Assembly (NCBI GenBank): GCA_016865035.1
Contig: CP018227.1
Coordinates: 1,644,001 to 1,708,000, forward strand
Source of the DNA: Kordiimonadales bacterium IMCC3096
GTDB lineage: Bacteria > Pseudomonadota > Alphaproteobacteria > Minwuiales > Minwuiaceae
Length of the DNA stretch: 64,000 nucleotides
Direction of reading: 5' to 3'
Position 1 is the first letter of the stretch, and each line of letters begins with the position of its first letter. The translations under genes were made by a program, and so were the position numbers. Positions 32,888-43,833 of this stretch are shown one piece after another. The notes beneath the pieces are model-generated. The model made no database searches and was not told where the DNA came from. It worked only from the letters and a program-made list of their open reading frames with translations.

Positions 32888-34162
32888 ATGGAAGCAATCG
32901 CGATCACCGGCACCGGTGTCGTCTCGTCCCTCGGCAGCAATGTGCCGAAGTTCCACACCAACGTCATGGCCGGGGCTACGGGTATCGGCGTGGCCCCCTG
33001 GTATGATCCGGCGCGGGATCCGCGCAAGATCTTCTGGGGCGTGGTCACCGACTTCGACCCGGACGACTGGATGTCGCCGAAGGTCGCCGAAGGCTCCGAC
33101 ATGTTCGCCCAGTTCGCCATAGCCGCCGCACGCCAGGCAATGCAGCAGGCGGGACTGGATGGCGGCGGCTTCGACGCGGAACGGACGGGTGTCGTCCATG
33201 GCACCTCCGGCGGTGGCGTCCGTGCGTTCCAGAAGGCGCAGTACATGCTGGATACCCAGGGACCGACGGCGGTGCCGCGCAAGACCCAGCTTCAGGTCTG
33301 GGCCAACATGGCGGCGGCGCAGGTGGCGCTGCATTACAGGCTGCACGGCCCCAATCTGACCGTGACCACCGCCTGCGCCAGTTCGCTGGATGCCATCGGC
33401 ACGGCGGCGAACCTGATCCGCGCAGGCGAGGCCGATGTGATCGTCGCGGGCGGCACGGAGGGCGGGCTGGCCCTGTCCGACGGCACCCAGGACGGCGATT
33501 TCGTGCCGGCCATGTACTACGCCGGCGGCGCCTATGGCATGGAGGGACCGATCGAGGACCCGAAGCGTGCCATGCTGCCCTTCGACGTCAACCGCTCCGG
33601 CATCGTGGTCGGCGAAGGCTCGGCAATGATCGTGCTGGAACGGGAAAGCCATGCGAAGGCCCGAGGTGCCAGGATACTTGGCTACCTGCGCGGCTATGGC
33701 TCGCTGGCCGACAGCTATCACCCCTCCTCCCCCGACCCGAGCGGGGAATGGGAGGCCCGCGCCATGCAGAAGGCCCTGCGCAGCGCCGGAATCGGCCCGA
33801 CCGATGTCGGTGGCCTGTTCGCCCATGCGACGGCCACACCGAAGGGCGACACGGCGGAGATCAATGCGATCAACCTGGTGCACGGCAAGGCCTCCGGTCG
33901 GGCGGCACCGCTGCCGGTCACCGGGCTGAAGGGCCACACCGGCCATTCCGGGGCCTCATCGGGCGGCATGGCCCTGATCGAGGGGCTGCTGGGCATGGCC
34001 GATGGCCGCTTCGCCCATACCGCCAATACCACGGACCCCGATCCTGCCGCCGAGTTCGAGATCGTCACGGGCCGTCCGAAGGACCTGGATTTCGATGTGG
34101 TGCAGGTCAATTCCTTCGGCTTCGGGGGGCAGAATGCCTCCATGATCGTGACACGGAGCTGA
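32888..34162 (+). CDS. Beta-ketoacyl-ACP synthase II-like enzyme
   Basis: 424 residues. The condensing-enzyme triad is intact: nucleophile Cys in TACASSLDAIG, first His in AHATATPKGD and second His in GHTGHSGASSGG, followed by VNSFGFGGQNAS. It extends an acyl chain with malonyl-ACP. The N-terminus (MEAIAITGTGVVSSLG) is FabF-like. It is followed five bases later by an acyl-CoA ligase gene, unlike the housekeeping fab cluster, which suggests a dedicated fatty-acid or lipid-modification path rather than primary synthesis (inference). Confidence 0.88.
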   Translation: MEAIAITGTGVVSSLGSNVPKFHTNVMAGATGIGVAPWYDPARDPRKIFWGVVTDFDPDDWMSPKVAEGSDMFAQFAIAAARQAMQQAGLDGGGFDAERTGVVHGTSGGGVRAFQKAQYMLDTQGPTAVPRKTQLQVWANMAAAQVALHYRLHGPNLTVTTACASSLDAIGTAANLIRAGEADVIVAGGTEGGLALSDGTQDGDFVPAMYYAGGAYGMEGPIEDPKRAMLPFDVNRSGIVVGEGSAMIVLERESHAKARGARILGYLRGYGSLADSYHPSSPDPSGEWEARAMQKALRSAGIGPTDVGGLFAHATATPKGDTAEINAINLVHGKASGRAAPLPVTGLKGHTGHSGASSGGMALIEGLLGMADGRFAHTANTTDPDPAAEFEIVTGRPKDLDFDVVQVNSFGFGGQNASMIVTRS

Positions 34163-34167
34163 TCGCC

Positions 34168-35682
34168 ATGCGCCTGACCCTTGCCGAGACCATCCTCAAC
34201 CGCTGCATCAATCACCCCGACCGCATCGCCATCGAGGTGCTGCAGGGCGGCCCGACGCTCACCTACGGCCAGGTCCGGGACCGCATCCTGGCGCTGGCCG
34301 ACGCGATCGCCGGGGTGGGCGCCGGACGGCACGGCCGGATGGTCGGCATCCTGCTGCCCAACGCGTCGGATCACGTGCTGGCCTACATGGCCTGTCAGTG
34401 GGCCGAGGCCGGGGCGGTGCCGGTGAACAGCCGCATGGCCCCGCCGGAGATGCAGTTCGTGATCGAGGATTCGGACGCCAAGCTGATCCTTGCCGCCGAA
34501 CCCTACATGGAGGCGGCGCGGACCCTCGCGGCTGCCACCGGTGCCACCGTGATCGATGCCGACAGCATCGATACGCCGGACCGGTCCGGTCCGCTGGTGT
34601 TCGGCGAATCAGGGCGCGGCGCGGAACATGCGGTGGTCGGCTATACCTCCGGCACCACGGGTTTCCCGAAGGGTGCGCTCTATTCCAACGACCACTACCT
34701 GACATCCTGCATGCGCTGGGGCTGGGAGTTCGGCCTGACCGCCCGCGACGTGATGCTGGTGCCGGGGCCGCTGTTTCACCTGTCCTATGCCGGGCTGTCC
34801 TTCGCGGCGCTGGCCATCGGTGCCCGCATCCGCATCATGCAGAGCTTCGAGGCGCCGCTGGCCATGGAAGAGCTGGCGAAGCGGAGCACCTTCGCCTTCC
34901 TCGTCCCCTCCATGACCACGATGATCGCGGAGGAATGGCGCAGGCAGGACTGTCCGCCGATCAGTGCCTTCCGCTTCATGATCTCCTCCGGCGCGCCGGG
35001 ACCGCTGTCCCTGACAAAGCAGTGCCTGGAGATGTTCCCCAACGCCCAGATCGCGGAGGCCTATGGCTGGACGGAGGGGGGCTGGGTCACCTTCGAGGTC
35101 AAGGACCGGGAGACCCTGCTGGCCCATTCGGTCGGCTGGCCCACCTTCGGCAACGAGGTCGCGGTATTCGACGAGGCGGGACAACCCTGCCCGGTGGGCG
35201 AACCGGGGGAAGTCGGCGTCAAGGCGCTGACCCATTTCTCCGGCTACCTCGGACGCGACGACGCGACGGAGGCCGCATGGCACCGCCCGGAGGGCCACGC
35301 GCAGGGCTATGTCATGTCCGGCGATGTCGGCATCTGGCAGCCGGACGGGCGGCTCTGCATCGTGGACCGGAAGAAGGACATGATCATCTCCGGCGGGGAG
35401 AACATCTATACCGCGGAGGTGGAGCGCATCCTGCACGAACACCCCGACATCATCGAGGCGGCGGTGGTCGGCCTGCCCGATGACCGCTGGGGCGAACTGG
35501 TCACCGCCATGATCGTCAGCCGCGACCCGGAGCTGCAGCCGGACGCGGTGGAGAAGTTCTGCCGCGAACGGCTGGCGGGCTACAAGGTGCCGCGCCGGGT
35601 CATCGTGACGGCTGAACTGCCCCGCAACCCCATGGGCAAGGTGCAGAAGTTCCGCATCATCGAGGCACTCACGGGCACCTGA
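34168..35682 (+). CDS. Acyl-CoA synthetase (AMP-forming ligase family)
   Basis: 504 residues from ATG 34168. AMP-binding signatures: VVGYTSGTTGFPKGAL (P-loop), EAYGWTEGGW (A5), SGDVGIWQPDGRLCIVDR (A7) and ISGGENIYTAEVE, and the adenylation Lys in NPMGKVQKFR near the C-terminus. It activates a carboxylic acid to acyl-AMP and then acyl-CoA. Medium-chain or aromatic acids are possible; chain length is not readable. The gene follows the ketoacyl synthase after five bases and is convergent with the esterase gene. Confidence 0.92.
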   Translation: MRLTLAETILNRCINHPDRIAIEVLQGGPTLTYGQVRDRILALADAIAGVGAGRHGRMVGILLPNASDHVLAYMACQWAEAGAVPVNSRMAPPEMQFVIEDSDAKLILAAEPYMEAARTLAAATGATVIDADSIDTPDRSGPLVFGESGRGAEHAVVGYTSGTTGFPKGALYSNDHYLTSCMRWGWEFGLTARDVMLVPGPLFHLSYAGLSFAALAIGARIRIMQSFEAPLAMEELAKRSTFAFLVPSMTTMIAEEWRRQDCPPISAFRFMISSGAPGPLSLTKQCLEMFPNAQIAEAYGWTEGGWVTFEVKDRETLLAHSVGWPTFGNEVAVFDEAGQPCPVGEPGEVGVKALTHFSGYLGRDDATEAAWHRPEGHAQGYVMSGDVGIWQPDGRLCIVDRKKDMIISGGENIYTAEVERILHEHPDIIEAAVVGLPDDRWGELVTAMIVSRDPELQPDAVEKFCRERLAGYKVPRRVIVTAELPRNPMGKVQKFRIIEALTGT

Positions 35683-36829: not shown

Positions 36830-38356
36830 ATGACCACGACCCCGCTTCTGCAACTCGACAGCCTGACCCGTTCATTTCCCGGGATCGTGGCCAACAACAG
36901 GATCGACCTGACCGTCGGGCCGGGCACGATTCACGCCCTGCTGGGGGAGAATGGTGCGGGCAAGTCGACGCTGGTGAAGATGATCTATGGCGCGCTGCGC
37001 CCCGACAGCGGGCGCATGCGGTTCGACGGTCGACCCTATGCCCCCGCCAACCCGGCTGCGGCGCGGGCCACCGGTGTCGGCATGGTGTTCCAGCATTTCT
37101 CCCTGTTCGAAGCGATGACGGTGGCGGAGAACATCGCCGTCGCCCTGCCTGCCGATCTGGCCGGGTCGGATCTGCCGGACCGGATCCGCGATGTCTCGGC
37201 CTCCTACGGTCTGGTGCTCGACCCCTTCAGCCGGGTGGACCAGCTGTCGGTCGGGGAACGCCAGCGGGTGGAGATCGTGCGCTGCCTGCTGCAGTCGCCG
37301 CGGCTGATCATCATGGACGAGCCGACGTCGGTCCTGACCCCGGGGGAGGTCGGGCGGCTGTTCACGGTCCTGCGCAAGCTGCGCGACGAGGGCCGTTCCA
37401 TCCTCTACATCTCCCACAAGCTGCGGGAGATCCGGAATCTCTGCAGCCACGCCACGATCCTGCGGCGCGGCAGGGTGGTCGGCACCTGCGACCCGGGGGC
37501 GGAGACACCTGAATCGCTGGCCGAGATGATGATCGGCAACGCGGTCCGCCGCCATATCCGCAAGGTGCAGGAACCGGGGGCGGTACGGCTGTCGATCGAT
37601 CACCTGACCCTGCCGGCAGCGACAGAGTTCGGTGTGGACCTGAAGGACATCTCGCTGGACGTGCGGGCGGGGGAGATCATCGGCATCGCCGGGGTGGCGG
37701 GCAACGGCCAGGACGAACTGATGGCCGCGCTGATCGGGGAACGGCGCAGCGCGACCCCGGATGCGGTCAGCCTGGATGGCGCGCCGGTCGGCACCCTGGG
37801 CCCGACACGTCGCCGCGCCATGGGCATGGCCTTCGTGCCGGAGGAACGGCTGGGTCACGGGGCCGCCGCCGCCATGAGCCTGACCGAGAACACCCTGATT
37901 TCGGCCCGGGGACGACGCAACCTGGAGCGCCGGGGCGTCCTGGACTTCGGTGCCGCGAAGCGTTTCGCGGCGGAGATCGTGAGTGCCTTCAACGTTGCCA
38001 CCACGGCAGTGACCCGCCAGGCCGGCAGCCTGTCCGGCGGCAACCTGCAGAAGTTCGTCATCGGACGGGAGATCCTGCAGGGACCGACCGTGCTGATCGC
38101 CGCGCAACCGACCTGGGGTGTCGATGCGAAATCGGCGGCCGAGATCCACACGGCCCTGGACCAGCTTGCCCGCGCCGGAGCCGCCATCCTGATCATCAGC
38201 CAGGACCTGGACGAGTTGCTGTCGATCTGTGACCGCTTTGCCGTCCTGGCCGGCGGCACCCTTTCCGCCCCCCGCGCCAGCGCCGACGTGACAGTGGCAG
38301 AGATCGGCATCCTGATGGGCGGCGCGGCGCGCGAACAGCAGGACGACGCCGCATGA
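36830..38356 (+). CDS. Nucleoside/simple-sugar ABC transporter, double ATPase subunit
   Basis: 508 residues from ATG 36830. It has two fused nucleotide-binding domains: the first with Walker A GENGAGKST, signature LSVGERQRVEI and Walker B LIIMDEPTSVL; the second is degenerate, with GVAGNGQDE and LSGGNLQKFV but a Walker B-like VLIAAQPTWGVD that lacks the catalytic Glu, as usual in this family (RbsA/NupA-like). It powers import by the two permeases encoded after it with overlapping codons. The substrate-binding protein gene (BmpA-like) is not adjacent. Confidence 0.93.
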   Translation: MTTTPLLQLDSLTRSFPGIVANNRIDLTVGPGTIHALLGENGAGKSTLVKMIYGALRPDSGRMRFDGRPYAPANPAAARATGVGMVFQHFSLFEAMTVAENIAVALPADLAGSDLPDRIRDVSASYGLVLDPFSRVDQLSVGERQRVEIVRCLLQSPRLIIMDEPTSVLTPGEVGRLFTVLRKLRDEGRSILYISHKLREIRNLCSHATILRRGRVVGTCDPGAETPESLAEMMIGNAVRRHIRKVQEPGAVRLSIDHLTLPAATEFGVDLKDISLDVRAGEIIGIAGVAGNGQDELMAALIGERRSATPDAVSLDGAPVGTLGPTRRRAMGMAFVPEERLGHGAAAAMSLTENTLISARGRRNLERRGVLDFGAAKRFAAEIVSAFNVATTAVTRQAGSLSGGNLQKFVIGREILQGPTVLIAAQPTWGVDAKSAAEIHTALDQLARAGAAILIISQDLDELLSICDRFAVLAGGTLSAPRASADVTVAEIGILMGGAAREQQDDAA

Positions 38357-39426
38357 TCCGGCTGGAGCGGCGGCCCGAGACGTCCCGCATCATGCTCTGG
38401 CTGACGCCGGTGCTGGCCCTGGTCCTGACGATCCTGGTCGGCATGGTGCTGTTCGCGATGCTCGGCAAGGACCCGCTGCAGACCGTGGCAGTGATCTTCG
38501 TCAGCCCCTTCTCCGACCTCTACAACCTTTCCGAACTGCTGGTGAAGGCGACGCCGCTGATCCTGATCGCCATCGGTCTCTCGCTCGGGTTCCGTGCCGG
38601 AATCTGGAACATCGGCGCGGAGGGGCAGTTCACCATCGGCGCGCTGGCGGGGGGCGCGGTCGGTCTGGCCTTTCACGGCACCGACGGCCTCTGGCTGATG
38701 CCGCTGATGTGGATCACCGGCTGTGCCGCCGGCATGGCCTGGGCCGCCATTCCGGCCTTCCTGCGCACCCGCTTCGGGGCCAACGAGATCCTGGTCAGCC
38801 TGATGCTGGTCTATGTCGCGACCCTGCTGCTCTCGGCGCTGGTCACCGGACCGCTGAGGGATCCGGACGGTTTCAACTTCCCCGAAAGCCGCCTGTTCGA
38901 AGGCTCCGCCGCCATGCCGCTGCTGATGGAGGGCACGCGGGCGCACATCGGCTTCTTCGCGGCGCTGGTGGCCGCGTTCGTGGCCTGGCTGCTGCTGGGT
39001 CGCCATGTCGTCGGCTTCCAGATCCGGCTGCTGGGGGAGGCCCCGCGCGCCGCCCGCTTCGCCGGATTTGTCGAGGCGCGGGTGATCTGGTTCTGCCTGC
39101 TGGTCTCCGGCGGGCTGGCCGGACTGGCCGGACTGTTCGAGGCAACGGGGCCGGTGGGACAACTGGTTCCCAGCCTGCCGGTCGGCTATGGCTTCACCGC
39201 GATCATCGTTGCCTTCCTGGGGCGTCTCAATCCGCTGGGTATCATCATCGCCGGATTCGTCATGGCGGTGACCTATCTGGGGGGCGAGGCCGCAGAGATC
39301 ACCATGCAACTGCCCAACGCCGTCACCGCCGTGTTCCAGGGACTACTGCTGTTCTTCCTGCTCGGCATGGATGTCCTGTCCACCTATCGCTTTCGCCTGC
39401 GCAGGCGGGTGCGGGAGGTCGCCTGA
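38353..39426 (+). CDS. ABC transporter permease (nucleoside/sugar, first subunit)
   Basis: 357 residues with eight to ten hydrophobic helices, first at about 15-40 and then from 58 on. The GFRAGIWNIGAEGQFTIGAL segment is the signature of the BmpA-type nucleoside transporter permeases (NupP/YufP). The start overlaps the ATPase stop (ATGA) and the stop overlaps the second permease start (TGATG). It sits in the inner membrane as one half of the transport channel. Confidence 0.92.
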   Translation: MIRLERRPETSRIMLWLTPVLALVLTILVGMVLFAMLGKDPLQTVAVIFVSPFSDLYNLSELLVKATPLILIAIGLSLGFRAGIWNIGAEGQFTIGALAGGAVGLAFHGTDGLWLMPLMWITGCAAGMAWAAIPAFLRTRFGANEILVSLMLVYVATLLLSALVTGPLRDPDGFNFPESRLFEGSAAMPLLMEGTRAHIGFFAALVAAFVAWLLLGRHVVGFQIRLLGEAPRAARFAGFVEARVIWFCLLVSGGLAGLAGLFEATGPVGQLVPSLPVGYGFTAIIVAFLGRLNPLGIIIAGFVMAVTYLGGEAAEITMQLPNAVTAVFQGLLLFFLLGMDVLSTYRFRLRRRVREVA

Positions 39427-40346
39427 TGGAACTGGCCATCAACATCATCCTCGGCATGATGCTCGCCGCGACACCGCTGCTGTTCGCCGCCACGGGGGAA
39501 CTGGTGGTGGAGCGTGCGGGGGTGCTGAACCTCGGTGTGGAGGGGATGATGGTGATCGGCGCCGTCGCCGGATTCATCGTCACCGCGGAGAGCGGATCGC
39601 ATCTGGCCGGTATCGTGGGTGCGGCGATTGCCGGCGCGGCCATGGCGCTGCTGTTCGGGCTGATGACGCAGGTCCTGCTGGCAAATCAGGTCGCCTCCGG
39701 CCTGGCGCTGACCATCTTCGGGCTGGGCCTGTCGGCATTGCTCGGCAGTGGCTATTCGGGACTCTCCATACCCGCGCTGGCCCGCATCGAGATCCCGGTG
39801 CTGACCGACATTCCCTTCTTCGGACCATTGCTGTTCCGTCATGAGCCCATGTTCTACCTGTCCATCCTGCTGCTGGTGCTGACCGGCTGGTTCCTGACCC
39901 GCACACGCGCCGGACTGATCCTGAAGGCGGTGGGGGAGAACCATGACGCCGCCCACGCCATCGGGCATCCGGTGGTGCTGATCCGGCTGCTTGCGCTGGC
40001 CTGGGGGGGTGCGCTGGCCGGACTGGGCGGTGCCTATCTCTCCATCGCGCGGACACCGCTGTGGTCGGAGGAGATGACGGCGGGCCGCGGCTGGATCGCG
40101 CTGGCCATCGTGGTCTTCGCGGGCTGGCGGACGAACCGGGCACTGCTGGGGGCCTACCTGTTCGGCGGCGTCACCATCCTGCAGCTGCACGTGCAGGGTC
40201 TGGGGATCGCGATCCCGTCGCAGTACCTGTCGATGCTGCCCTATCTGGTGACCATCGCGGTACTGGTCGCCATCTCCGCCAGCCCGACACGGGCCATGCT
40301 GCGCGCGCCGGGCAGCCTGGGCAGGACCTTCCACGCCCAGGGCTGA
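39426..40346 (+). CDS. ABC transporter permease (nucleoside/sugar, second subunit)
   Basis: 306 residues, eight or more hydrophobic helices. The motif AGVLNLGVEGMMVIGAVAGF is typical of the YufQ/NupQ-type second permease and GRGWIALAIVVFAGW of the coupling region. It pairs with the permease before it to form the transmembrane channel. The operon ends here: a long inverted repeat follows (40350-40455), then the agmatine deiminase-like gene. Confidence 0.92.
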   Translation: MELAINIILGMMLAATPLLFAATGELVVERAGVLNLGVEGMMVIGAVAGFIVTAESGSHLAGIVGAAIAGAAMALLFGLMTQVLLANQVASGLALTIFGLGLSALLGSGYSGLSIPALARIEIPVLTDIPFFGPLLFRHEPMFYLSILLLVLTGWFLTRTRAGLILKAVGENHDAAHAIGHPVVLIRLLALAWGGALAGLGGAYLSIARTPLWSEEMTAGRGWIALAIVVFAGWRTNRALLGAYLFGGVTILQLHVQGLGIAIPSQYLSMLPYLVTIAVLVAISASPTRAMLRAPGSLGRTFHAQG

Positions 40347-40349
40347 GGA

Positions 40350-40455
40350 GGAGTCTGTTTGCTGCCTTTTCCGTCCCTCTCCCCCACCCGGCCACCCATC
40401 AAGGATACTACCGTGGGGGACCGGGTAGGGGAGAGGAACGGGGAGAACAGACTCC
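40350..40455. repeat. 106-bp composite inverted repeat (long hairpin)
   Basis: Perfect outer arms (40350-40359 GGAGTCTGTT with 40446-40455 AACAGACTCC) enclose inner arms 40371-40391 and 40421-40441, which pair over 21 bases with two mismatches (CCTCTCCCC-type). It lies between the permease stop and the next gene and could end transcription, or be a small miniature-element relic. Confidence 0.85.
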
Positions 40456-40500
40456 GGACTCCCGGCTTTCCTTCCGGTGAAAATGCAATAGGCTTCGGCC

Positions 40501-41517
40501 ATGGATGAAGAAAACCCCTCCTTCGAAGGCTACTTCCCGGTCCCCGACTGGGCGGCACATACGCGTACCTGGATGGCCTGGCCGACAGACCCGACGGAGA
40601 TGCCGGCCGGGCTGCTGGAAAGCCGCGTCGCCTTCGCCCAGATCGCCCGCACGATTGCCGCCTTCGAGCCGGTGCGGATGATCGTGCCGGAGCCGGACAT
40701 GAAGGAAACCGCCCTGACCCTCGGCCCGAAGGTCGAACTGGTGCCGCATGACGTCGCCCACGGCTGGATAAGGGATCTGGCACCGACGTTCCTGGTGAAC
40801 GAGCAGGCGCGGACCAAGGGCGTGGCGTGGAAGTTCAATGGCTGGGGCGGGCGCCACATCGTGCATGAGGAAGACCACGGCTTTGCCGAGGAACTGGTGC
40901 GTCTGATGCAGGTACCCTATTACCGCGGCCCCATCGTTCTGGAGGGCGGTGCCGTGCAGACCGACGGTCTGGGAACGGCGCTGGTCAGCGAGCAGACCCT
41001 GATGAGCCCGAACCGCAATCCGCTGGTGGGGCGGCGCGACATCGAAGAGATCCTGATGAACTTCTTCGGCATCGTCCGCGTGATCTGGCTCGGCGAAGGC
41101 ATCAGCGGCCTGGTCGGCGGCGGCGGCCACGTCGGCCGCTTCTGCCGCTTCATTGCGCCCGGCAAGGTCCTGCTGCATTCGCCCGCCGACCCGGAGCATC
41201 CCGATTTCCGCGCCATGCAGGACAATGTGCAGCGGCTGCGCGCGGCCACGGATCCCTTCGACCGGCCCATCGAGATGCTGGAAGTGCCGGTGCCGGAGGC
41301 CATCGGCCCCGCGTCCATGACCTATTGCGGCTTCTATCTCGCCAATGGGGCGGTGCTGATCCCCCGCTTCGATGACCCGCGCGATGCGGAGGCCTTTGAC
41401 CTGATCGCAGGCTGTTTCCCCGACCGGAAAGCCGTGCCGGTCGATGGCGAAGTGGTGGGCGGTGCGATACATCATCTGGCTCTGGGTGAGCCGGTGGGAG
41501 ACCACCTGGCCACCTGA
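40501..41517 (+). CDS. Agmatine deiminase-family protein with altered active site
   Basis: 338 residues. The fold of agmatine deiminases (guanidine-modifying pentein family) is evident: WAAHTRTWMAWP, GWIRDLAPTFLV near 89, VLEGGAVQTDG near 147, MSPNRNPLVGR, and FYLANGAVLIPRF. But active-site residues differ from the plant/bacterial enzymes: the EGGSIHxDG segment reads EGGAVQTDG (His to Gln), the GDxDTNGHID loop reads GLVGGGGHVG (both Asp lost, His210 retained), and the catalytic Cys of GGxIHC is His (His325 in GGAIHHLA). A normal N-carbamoylputrescine product is therefore unlikely. It may bind a guanidine or be a pseudoenzyme. Follows the ABC transporter across a 154-base hairpin gap. Confidence 0.85.
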   Translation: MDEENPSFEGYFPVPDWAAHTRTWMAWPTDPTEMPAGLLESRVAFAQIARTIAAFEPVRMIVPEPDMKETALTLGPKVELVPHDVAHGWIRDLAPTFLVNEQARTKGVAWKFNGWGGRHIVHEEDHGFAEELVRLMQVPYYRGPIVLEGGAVQTDGLGTALVSEQTLMSPNRNPLVGRRDIEEILMNFFGIVRVIWLGEGISGLVGGGGHVGRFCRFIAPGKVLLHSPADPEHPDFRAMQDNVQRLRAATDPFDRPIEMLEVPVPEAIGPASMTYCGFYLANGAVLIPRFDDPRDAEAFDLIAGCFPDRKAVPVDGEVVGGAIHHLALGEPVGDHLAT

Positions 41518-41559: not shown

Positions 41560-42300
41560 ATGGCTGGACGTCTGCAGGGCAAGAAGTGCTTCGTCACCGC
41601 AGCGGCACAGGGTATCGGCCGGGCAACGGTGGAGGCCTGGTCGGCCGAGGGCGCGACCATCATCGCGACGGATCTGAACGCGGAGAAGCTGGCGGAACTC
41701 GATGGCCTGCCCGGGGTCGAGACCCACCCGCTGGACGTCACCGACCAGGCCGCCGTGGCGGCTATGGCGGCGAAGGTCGGGGCGGTGGACGTGCTGTTCA
41801 ACTGCGCCGGCTATGTCGATCACGGATCCCTGCTGGACACCACGATGAAGGGTTGGGACTTCAGTTTCGAGCTGAACTGCCGGTCGCTGTTCGTGGTGAC
41901 CCAGGCCTTCATGCCGGCGATGCTGGCGAACGGCGGCGGCTCCATCATCAACATGGCCTCCGTCGTCAGTTCGGAGATGGGGGTGGTCAACCGCTGCGCC
42001 TATGGCGCCACCAAGGGCGCGGTGATCGGTTTCACCAAGTCGGTGGCGGCGGACTACATCGGTGACGGCATCCGCTGCAACGCCATCTGCCCGGCCACCG
42101 TGCAGACCCCGTCGCTGGATGACCGCATCAATGCGTTCGATGACCCCGTCCAGGCGCGCAAGGACTTCGTGTCGCGCCAGAAGATGGGTCGCCTCGCCCG
42201 CGCCGACGAGATCGCGTCACTGGCCACCTATCTGGCCGCCGACGAGAGCCAGTACGTCACCGGACAGGCCATGGTGATCGACGGCGGTATGCACCTGTAG
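41560..42300 (+). CDS. SDR dehydrogenase, BDH2/DHRS6-like
   Basis: 246 residues. Rossmann motif TAAAQGIGRATVEA, NCAG, the catalytic Tyr-Lys in AYGATKGAVIGFTK, and SVAADYIGDGIRCN. Alignment in my memory with human BDH2 (cytosolic type 2 (R)-beta-hydroxybutyrate / 4-oxo-L-proline reductase) is close throughout, including GVVNRC and CPATVQTPSL. It may therefore reduce 4-oxoproline or oxidise a 3-hydroxy acid with NAD(H); inference only. Ten bases separate it from the acyl-CoA synthetase gene, which suggests co-transcription and an acid-activation pathway. Confidence 0.88.
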   Translation: MAGRLQGKKCFVTAAAQGIGRATVEAWSAEGATIIATDLNAEKLAELDGLPGVETHPLDVTDQAAVAAMAAKVGAVDVLFNCAGYVDHGSLLDTTMKGWDFSFELNCRSLFVVTQAFMPAMLANGGGSIINMASVVSSEMGVVNRCAYGATKGAVIGFTKSVAADYIGDGIRCNAICPATVQTPSLDDRINAFDDPVQARKDFVSRQKMGRLARADEIASLATYLAADESQYVTGQAMVIDGGMHL

Positions 42301-42309
42301 GGCGATCAA

Positions 42310-43833
42310 ATGGATCTGGCGCACTGGATCGAGGGCTGGGCCGGACAGGCACCGGACAAGCCCGCCATCATCACCGACGATGAGACACTGACCTATGCCG
42401 GCTTCGCCGCGGCCATCGACCGGGCGGCGCGGGCGTTGCGGCACGAACTGGGGGTCAGGGCCGGGGACCGTGTGGCGCATCTGGGCGAGAACTCCGTCGC
42501 GGAACTGGTGCTGTTCTTCGCCTGCGCCCGGGCGGGTGTCAGCCTGGTCACGCTGAACTGGCGGCTGGCCCCGCCCGAACACGGGTTTCAGCTTGCCGAC
42601 AGCGGTGCCGGCGTGCTGTTCGCCGATCCCGGTTTCATTCCCCACGCCGACGCCATTCCCGACACATTGCCCGGCCTGAAACATGTTTCCCTCGGCCCGG
42701 CGGAGGGGCGGTGGAGTGCCTGGAGTGACCATCTGGCGGCGGCCGCATCGGGTGCCGCCATCGCGCCGGAGGCCAGCCATGAAACACCGGTGCTGCTGGT
42801 CTATACCTCCGGCACCACGGGCCGCCCGAAGGGCGCGGTGCTGACCCAGGGCAATGTCTTCTGGAACGCGGTCAACGCGACCCATGCGCATGACATGGTC
42901 AGCAGCGATCTGGTCCTGACCAACCTGCCGCTGTTCCACGTCGGCGGGCTGAACAACCAGACCACGCCCGCGTTTCATGCCGGGGCGACGGTCTATCTGC
43001 AGCCGCGTTTCGACCCTGCGATGACGCTGGGCGCCATCGACCGGCTGCGCCCGACACTGGCGCTGGCCGTGCCCGCGATGATGCAGGCCCTGACCGATCA
43101 CCCGGGCTGGGCCACCACCGACCTGTCATCGCTGCGACTGGTGATGGCCGGATCGACCACGGTGCCCACGGCACTGATCGAGCGGTTTCACGCGCGCGGG
43201 GTGCCGATTGGCCAGATCTACGGCTCCACCGAGACCTCACCGCTGGCCATCGTGCTGCGCGGACAGGATGCGCTGGACCATGTCGGCTCCTGCGGGCGAC
43301 CGGCAGTGCATGTGCAGGTGCGCGTCGTGGACAATGACGGGCGCGACGTGGCGGAGGGAGATGCCGGGGAGATCCTGGTGCGCGGCCCCAGCGTCTTCTC
43401 CGGCTACTGGCAGAACCCGGACGCGACGGCGGAGGCCTTCGTCGAGGGCGGCTGGTTCCGCATGGGCGACATCGGCCGCCGCGATACGGACGGCTTCTAC
43501 CGCATCGAGGACCGGGCCAAGGACGTGGTGATTTCGGGTGGGGAGAATATCTACCCCGCCGAACTGGAACAGGTGCTGGCGGCACACGCCGACCTGGCCG
43601 AGTTCGCCGTCGTGGGCCGCCCCGATCCGCGCTGGGGCGAAGTCCCCGTGATCTTCGCCGTCCCGCGGGAGGGGCAGACCCTTGATGCCCCGGCCCTGCT
43701 CGCCCTGTTCCACAACCGCCTCGCCCGCTACAAGCACCCGAAGGACGTCATCCCCATCGACGCCCTGCCCCGCAACGCGCTGGGCAAGGTGCTGAAATAC
43801 GAACTCAGGGCGATGTTGGCGAAGGCAGGGTGA
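42310..43833 (+). CDS. Acyl-CoA synthetase (AMP-forming ligase family)
   Basis: 507 residues. AMP-binding motifs: LLVYTSGTTGRPKGAVLT, IGQIYGSTETSPL, MGDIGRRDTDGFYRIEDRAKD, ISGGENIYPAELE, and LPRNALGKVLKYEL with the catalytic Lys. It activates an acid to its CoA ester and is not the same gene as the one at 34168. The 3' end overlaps the vapC coding end by 29 bases, tail to tail. Preceded by the BDH2-like dehydrogenase, so a joint degradative role for a hydroxy or keto acid is plausible. Confidence 0.93.
   Translation: MDLAHWIEGWAGQAPDKPAIITDDETLTYAGFAAAIDRAARALRHELGVRAGDRVAHLGENSVAELVLFFACARAGVSLVTLNWRLAPPEHGFQLADSGAGVLFADPGFIPHADAIPDTLPGLKHVSLGPAEGRWSAWSDHLAAAASGAAIAPEASHETPVLLVYTSGTTGRPKGAVLTQGNVFWNAVNATHAHDMVSSDLVLTNLPLFHVGGLNNQTTPAFHAGATVYLQPRFDPAMTLGAIDRLRPTLALAVPAMMQALTDHPGWATTDLSSLRLVMAGSTTVPTALIERFHARGVPIGQIYGSTETSPLAIVLRGQDALDHVGSCGRPAVHVQVRVVDNDGRDVAEGDAGEILVRGPSVFSGYWQNPDATAEAFVEGGWFRMGDIGRRDTDGFYRIEDRAKDVVISGGENIYPAELEQVLAAHADLAEFAVVGRPDPRWGEVPVIFAVPREGQTLDAPALLALFHNRLARYKHPKDVIPIDALPRNALGKVLKYELRAMLAKAG

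Follow-up and report, generated by a model that had tools for sequence, protein, structure and literature searches.

In the bacterial genus Minwuia, an agmatine deiminase (AguA) of the family has, as judged from its aligned residues, lost the positions needed for catalysis and for agmatine recognition alike, and its gene is nevertheless under strong purifying selection with a conserved pocket. The protein, P0001, is best explained (probability about 0.62) as a pseudo-deiminase that descended in place from the family AguA and works as a non-hydrolytic ligand binder, either a soluble sensor or an adaptor. Its gene was analysed within a 64,000-nt stretch of the Kordiimonadales bacterium IMCC3096 chromosome (contig CP018227.1, positions 1,644,001 to 1,708,000), which is called the window below; positions of the features are collected in Table 1.

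The P0001 open reading frame starts with ATG and is the sole PF04371 gene of its own 4.29-Mb genome. P0001 belongs to the Pfam family PF04371 (277.2 bits against a cut-off of 25, covering residues 15–324) but stays below the cut-off of the AguA equivalog model TIGR03380 (226.8 against 381.8 bits). By inspection, the protein has neither a hydrophobic N-terminus nor a signal peptide. A promoter scan upstream of the gene found none, and no Rfam element, including the guanidine riboswitch, reached the gathering threshold within the 64-kb window. An AF2 model built from 35 sequences (pLDDT 89.8, pTM 0.90) matches the agmatine deiminase structure 3h7c with a TM score of 0.93 in Foldseek and 1vkp with a Z score of 47.0 and an rmsd of 1.7 over 333 residues; the predicted structure is the AgDI fold, a five-bladed alpha/beta propeller of the pentein/GME superfamily.

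Table 1. Positions of the P0001 gene, its active-site residues and its neighbours in the window; those of the last three rows refer to the loci named.
Feature	Position	Strand	Basis or remark
ABC importer: ATPase (start taken as ATG at 36830) and two permeases	36830..40346	+	neighbour; partnership putative
Putative pseudo-agmatine deiminase gene (P0001, 338 aa)	40501..41517	+	ORF and PF04371 match
His87, replaces Asp (the D of DDxW) of DDxWxRD	40759..40761	+	7/7 Minwuia; Asp in 126/136 others, His in 0
Arg91-Asp92 of WxRD, retained	40771..40776	+	same in 143/143 rows
Longest invariant Minwuia run, residues 110-132, with His119, His122, His126	40828..40896	+	alignment
Glu148, retained	40942..40944	+	same in 143/143 rows
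Gln153, family-variable position	40957..40959	+	His in 72/136 others
GLVGGGGHVG loop: acids gone, His210 retained, Asp→Gly212	41107..41136	+	alignment
Gly277, replaces Cys-assisting Asn (PPAD Asn297)	41329..41331	+	7/7 Minwuia; Asn in 127/136 others
His325, replaces nucleophile Cys	41473..41475	+	7/7 Minwuia; Cys in 122/136 others, His in 0
SDR oxidoreductase gene, 42 bp downstream of the P0001 gene	41560..42300	+	linked in 5/7 Minwuia
Acyl-CoA ligase-like gene	42310..43833	+	linked in 5/7 Minwuia
Second PF04371 gene, L075	3164-4162	-	G001
Second PF04371 gene, L076	940-1944	+	G004
Second PF04371 gene, L077	3976-4938	+	G005

Active-site columns were read from an alignment of 143 proteins, seven from Minwuia and 136 other homologues; the latter came from homologue searches that included the best 30 loci and 60 further matches of one search and, since only 60 further matches were taken, weak matches are under-represented among them. 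The key residues of P0001 are His87, Trp89, Arg91, Asp92, Glu148, Gln153, His210, Gly212, Gly277, His324 and His325, and its motifs are HGWIRD (87–92), EGGAVQTDG (148–156), GLVGGGGHVG (203–212) and GGAIHHL (320–326). An earlier note, made from the sequence of this gene, had claimed that the catalytic residues are lost, and the alignment agrees. The nucleophile Cys is His325 in all seven Minwuia proteins and, in the PF04371 alignment that the note had proposed as a check, His at this column defines the clade; the other homologues carry Cys (122), Arg (5), Ser (5) or Ala (3) there, with one truncated row. The acidic loop GDxDTNGHID has become GLVGGGGHVG as described, with His210 kept and the catalytic/guanidinium Asp after GHx, which is Asp in 123 of the 136 others, changed to Gly212 in 7/7 Minwuia, and the WxRD stretch is intact. 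To these, two losses absent from the note are added, Asn→Gly277 and Asp→His87. The note also read Gln153 as the replacement of an active-site His; the change itself is present, but column 153 is variable in the family (among the 136, Asp in 18, Glu in 17, Ser in 10 and other residues in the remainder, besides His), so that Gln153 is no marker of catalytic loss. Altogether, the general acid/base His210 and the first guanidinium Asp92 of AguA are found in all seven Minwuia proteins, whereas the nucleophile Cys, the guanidinium Asp and the Asn that assists the Cys are absent from all of them. All three are retained by each of six extra non-Minwuia homologues (L243–L248) from a phylum-wide profile search.

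The functional weight of these positions comes from characterized relatives. According to a figure legend in PMC4487231, Cys351, His236, Asn297, Asp238 and Asp130 of PPAD are equivalent to Cys357, His218, Asn306, Asp220 and Asp96 of AgDI, and the AgDI numbers (Cys357, Asp220, Asn306) refer to the E. faecalis enzyme. Passages of the same paper report that mutation of Cys351, Asp238, His236 or Asn297 abolishes PPAD activity and term Asp130 indispensable (PMC4487231), and mutants Cys357Ala/Ser, Asp262Asn, Asn311Asp and His260Asn/Phe of NnhA are described as having no activity in passages of PMC11659421. Passages of PMC6447857 describe how Medicago AIH binds agmatine: Asp220 and, via water, Asp89 hold the terminal amine of the substrate, and Asp218 lies near a water. 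These three acids correspond to Gly206, His87 and Leu204 of P0001 (204 and 206 were located by residue count relative to the aligned His); P0001 also lacks the counterparts of MtAIH Cys366 and Asp226, the AguA nucleophile and guanidinium/catalytic Asp. P0001 is thus predicted to have no deiminase activity.

The altered residue pattern is identical in 7/7 Minwuia genomes examined, that of the window and six others, in which the proteins are 71–97% identical, the 97%-identical relatives being those of Minwuia sp. and Minwuia thermotolerans. A sequencing error at the Cys or Asp codons, which the earlier note had named as the observation that would overturn its claim, is ruled out by this sharing. 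By the Nei–Gojobori method, dN/dS between the P0001 gene and its six orthologues is 0.038–0.240, similar to that of its neighbours, the linked permeases and SDR (0.046–0.131); rows with dN/dS >1 (HSL in G004, ABC ATPase in G005) were set aside and read as misaligned or truncated CDS. The low ratios (0.04–0.24) and the pattern fixed in seven genomes rule out random decay, in line with what the note had supposed. Invariant positions in the seven Minwuia rows amount to 216/338 overall and 58/68 in motif segments (hypergeometric p 1.5e-5, for segments that were chosen by hand and include fold-determining residues). The longest invariant run, residues 110–132 (WKFNGWGGRHIVHEEDHGFAEEL; permutation p 0.0027), contains three His, whose columns 119, 122 and 126 hold His in 7, 44 and none of the 136 others. 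In AIH, a flexible repeat-II stretch (122–136) adjoins the active site, according to passages of PMC6447857, and in our reading the run of P0001 corresponds to this stretch. P0001 therefore shares three marks of a RESC5-like pseudoenzyme: the nucleophile is absent, the gene is under purifying selection and the pocket is conserved.

Descent from AguA can be followed in the gene order. Two Minwuia genomes, G006 and G003, form the deepest branch of the genus, and their P0001-type locus is colinear with the loci of G008 and G007 from the same family, in the order 2-hydroxyacid dehydrogenase, a protein of ~250 aa, the deiminase gene and a cyclase-like gene, with a RidA-like gene in addition in G008 (names given by eye). 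The G008 locus, from a sister genus, holds a deiminase (L009) that passes the AguA equivalog cut-off (384.2 against 381.8) and is adjoined by AguB (457.4 against a cut-off of 410.25). In a tree of 43 rows chosen by hand, the seven Minwuia proteins are sister to L009 with support of 96/90, on a stem of 1.76 compared with 0.16 for L009, and this grouping agrees with the gene order. L021 from the other sister genus lies outside the grouping in the best 43-row tree, and a grouping with L021 is not rejected (p-AU 0.277). The position beside L009 is specific to the 43-row tree; larger quick trees place Minwuia elsewhere. In a 141-row quick tree it joins the Cys-less L167 and L178 (SH-aLRT 91), and without these two and six other long rows it joins L019 (82), and both placements were flagged as long branches meeting and set aside. 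L155 (truncated) and L040 (overlong start) had been dropped before tree building. The remaining five Minwuia genomes have the gene between the ABC importer and the SDR and acyl-CoA ligase genes, a different setting which indicates that it has moved there. The shared locus, the sister grouping with L009 and the lack of AguB together identify P0001 as an AguA that evolved in place.

No AguB above the TIGR03381 cut-off was found in any of the seven Minwuia genomes. Such an AguB is present in 3 of the 13 non-Minwuia genomes that carry a Cys-less homologue and in 41/60 further genomes, 59 of which have a Cys-bearing row. Its presence thus differs between Cys-less and Cys-bearing rows (3/20 vs 41/59; Fisher p 4.4e-5 for 79 rows, phylogenetically uncorrected and leaving out G125, whose row L155 is not in the tree), and phylogenetically independent pairs number only 4–5, so that this comparison cannot reach 0.05. 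Because AguB coexists with a Cys-less homologue in G045, G261 and G334, the coupling between absence of AguB and loss of Cys is only a tendency; in the data gathered, a canonical second PF04371 copy (L195) occurs among these three only in G045. PF02784 decarboxylases are present in 9/9 family genomes. A second PF04371 gene is absent from 4/7 Minwuia genomes, and an obligate prozyme role for P0001 was rejected on this ground. The second gene of G001, G004 and G005 has canonical catalytic residues, falls on another tree branch and lies near acyl-CoA ligase homologues, and the score of L075 does not reach the AguA cut-off (224.1 against 381.8).

Loss of the nucleophile is not confined to Minwuia. 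The Cys is missing in 13/136 non-Minwuia homologues, all in Alphaproteobacteria and belonging to groups f38, f10, f68, f116, f125 and f35, and parsimony on the 141-row tree requires at least five changes between Cys and non-Cys, Minwuia included. Annotation as agmatine deiminase from PF04371 is therefore unsafe in Alphaproteobacteria. Several Cys-less groups (L207–L218) have recurring RidA-like, HIT-like and GNAT-like neighbours (names given by eye), and no AguB match occurs in their twelve longer neighbourhoods. L157 (G279) keeps the Cys with Gln, Asn and Asp at the His, Asp and Asn columns, and its close kin L142 and L148 are without Cys, indicating that the Cys can be the last residue lost.

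On the Minwuia stem, AguB would have been lost before or together with the residue losses in the P0001 ancestor (Cys→His325, Asp→Gly212, Asn→Gly277, Asp→His87, Asp→Leu204 and Asp→Gly206), after which P0001 would have come under strong purifying selection. The present protein would be a five-bladed pentein, soluble and located in the cytosol, whose remodelled, less acidic and His-rich pocket binds a ligand without hydrolysing it, the guanidinium floor probably being filled by His325, and it would act through binding, in a regulatory capacity, as a sensor or adaptor. The change of the cation-binding acids to His, Leu and Gly suggests such a role and a ligand that is different and less cationic; this ligand is probably not agmatine.

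Against this reading, the retained His210, Asp92 and Glu148 together with the new His325 might permit a different chemistry. P0001 might be a new enzyme that acts on another substrate, its pocket having gained a catalytic or metal site rich in His (His87, His119/122/126, His210 and His325 with Asp92 or Glu148); this seems unlikely. His87, His126 and His325 are invariant and clade-specific (each in 0/136 others), His119 is invariant and found in 7/136 others, the family His210 is kept, conservation is highest in the pocket segments, and a Zn-bound pentein, DDAH-1 (7usz, by its entry title), is among the structural matches of the model, whereas the total His content of the Minwuia proteins, 12–15, is within the family range (mean 8.9, maximum 17). 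Somewhat more doubtful is the related proposal that, by Cys→His and acids→Gly/His, a Cys-dependent guanidine hydrolase turned in place into a His-rich protein that would bind a metal or cofactor and might be a metalloenzyme. If true, the metal site would be new chemistry in the pentein fold, confined to one bacterial genus. A lower likelihood still attaches to a purely structural or protein-binding scaffold, with a vestigial pocket and a fold retained to serve a partner: Arg91, Asp92 and Glu148 are constant even in all Cys-less rows, so that some of the pocket conservation may be structural, but His87, His126, GGGGHVG, Gly277 and His325 are invariant in Minwuia despite differing from the ancestral state. 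It is very improbable that a substitute nucleophile lets P0001 still hydrolyse agmatine or some other guanidine compound; in favour of this, His210 and Asp92 are kept. The equivalents of Cys, Asp and Asn, all gone here, are each essential in the PPAD and NnhA mutants described above, the amine-reading acids are gone as well and the genus is without AguB; the suggestion in the earlier note of a hydrolase for another guanidine compound is disfavoured on the same mutant evidence.

Least probable of all is a role with the neighbouring ABC importer, either as its ligand-binding component or as its regulator. The earlier note had drawn attention to this importer as lacking a binding protein. The importer adjoins the P0001-type gene in 5/7 Minwuia genomes, and the absence of a binding-protein gene is true of the window. 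It is misleading, however, for the chromosome. The importer is unlinked to the P0001-type gene in G003 and G006, and importer orthologues in G006 and G003 (74%) and in G007 (59%) each lie beside a gene for a Bmp-type binding protein. A Bmp orthologue 77.6, 79.0 and 69.2% identical to those of G006, G003 and G007 is encoded in the genome of the window outside it (G000:C1:2236515-2237330), and appears to have become separated from the importer in this lineage. The binding protein thus seems to have parted from the importer rather than to have been succeeded by P0001, which by inspection lacks an export signal and is not constantly linked to the importer; P0001 as the substrate-binding protein of the importer was rejected. 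A palindrome with 49-nt arms (window 40350–40462), a dispersed repeat, also stands between the importer and the P0001 gene. It has 72 match rows in its own genome, both strands counted, and a similar hairpin occupies the same gap in G001 and is absent from G002, G004 and G005. Around 32888–35682 and 41560–43833, the window has a ketoacyl synthase, two acyl-CoA ligase-like genes and the SDR, which possibly form a lipid or secondary-metabolite cluster.

With P0001 as a non-hydrolytic binder, the locus offers a positional example of a polyamine-metabolism enzyme that lost catalysis and was kept under selection, while a sister genus retains a working-looking aguA-aguB pair. That the altered pocket has stayed nearly unchanged suggests an old enzyme given a new job, and what dead penteins bind becomes a directly testable question. 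In the open-access literature, we found no report of a catalytically dead agmatine deiminase or its pseudogene, nor of a bacterial agmatine deiminase, restricted to one genus, in which Cys→His goes along with a remodelled pocket that is conserved.

Dead penteins as such are already a known kind. The eIF6/IF6 proteins are non-enzymatic penteins. PMC11659421 lists them in the superfamily to which P0001 belongs. Their family is a different one, and no evidence for a ribosomal role of P0001 was found here. NnhA, a 2-nitroimidazole hydrolase, is a member of the GME superfamily recruited to a new substrate which, unlike P0001, keeps the Cys-His-Asp-Asn machinery, according to the same passages (PMC11659421). 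With AguA (AIH; TIGR03380, PF04371), P0001 shares the fold, the residues Trp89, Arg91, Asp92, Glu148, His210 and His324, and vertical descent from the sister-genus AguA, whereas the Cys, guanidinium Asp, assisting Asn and amine-reading acids of AguA are all missing from P0001 and AguB from its genus. The other Cys-less PF04371 proteins of Alphaproteobacteria are likewise AguA-related with the nucleophile gone; they differ in that Cys became Ser, Ala or Arg but never His, Asp87 is mostly kept and the clades are separate. A precedent is RESC5 of Trypanosoma brucei, a structure of which (8dpk) is among the Foldseek matches of the P0001 model. As described in passages of PMC9980740, RESC5 is a pentein that lacks the catalytic Cys and His, has a conserved pocket and is adapted to a non-catalytic role; it is DDAH-like and eukaryotic, has Ala and Pro in place of Cys and His, and keeps most substrate-binding residues. 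P0001 resembles it in combining the pentein fold and a conserved pocket with the absence of a nucleophile, but differs in that His210 is kept, the Cys became His and the substrate-binding acids are lost.
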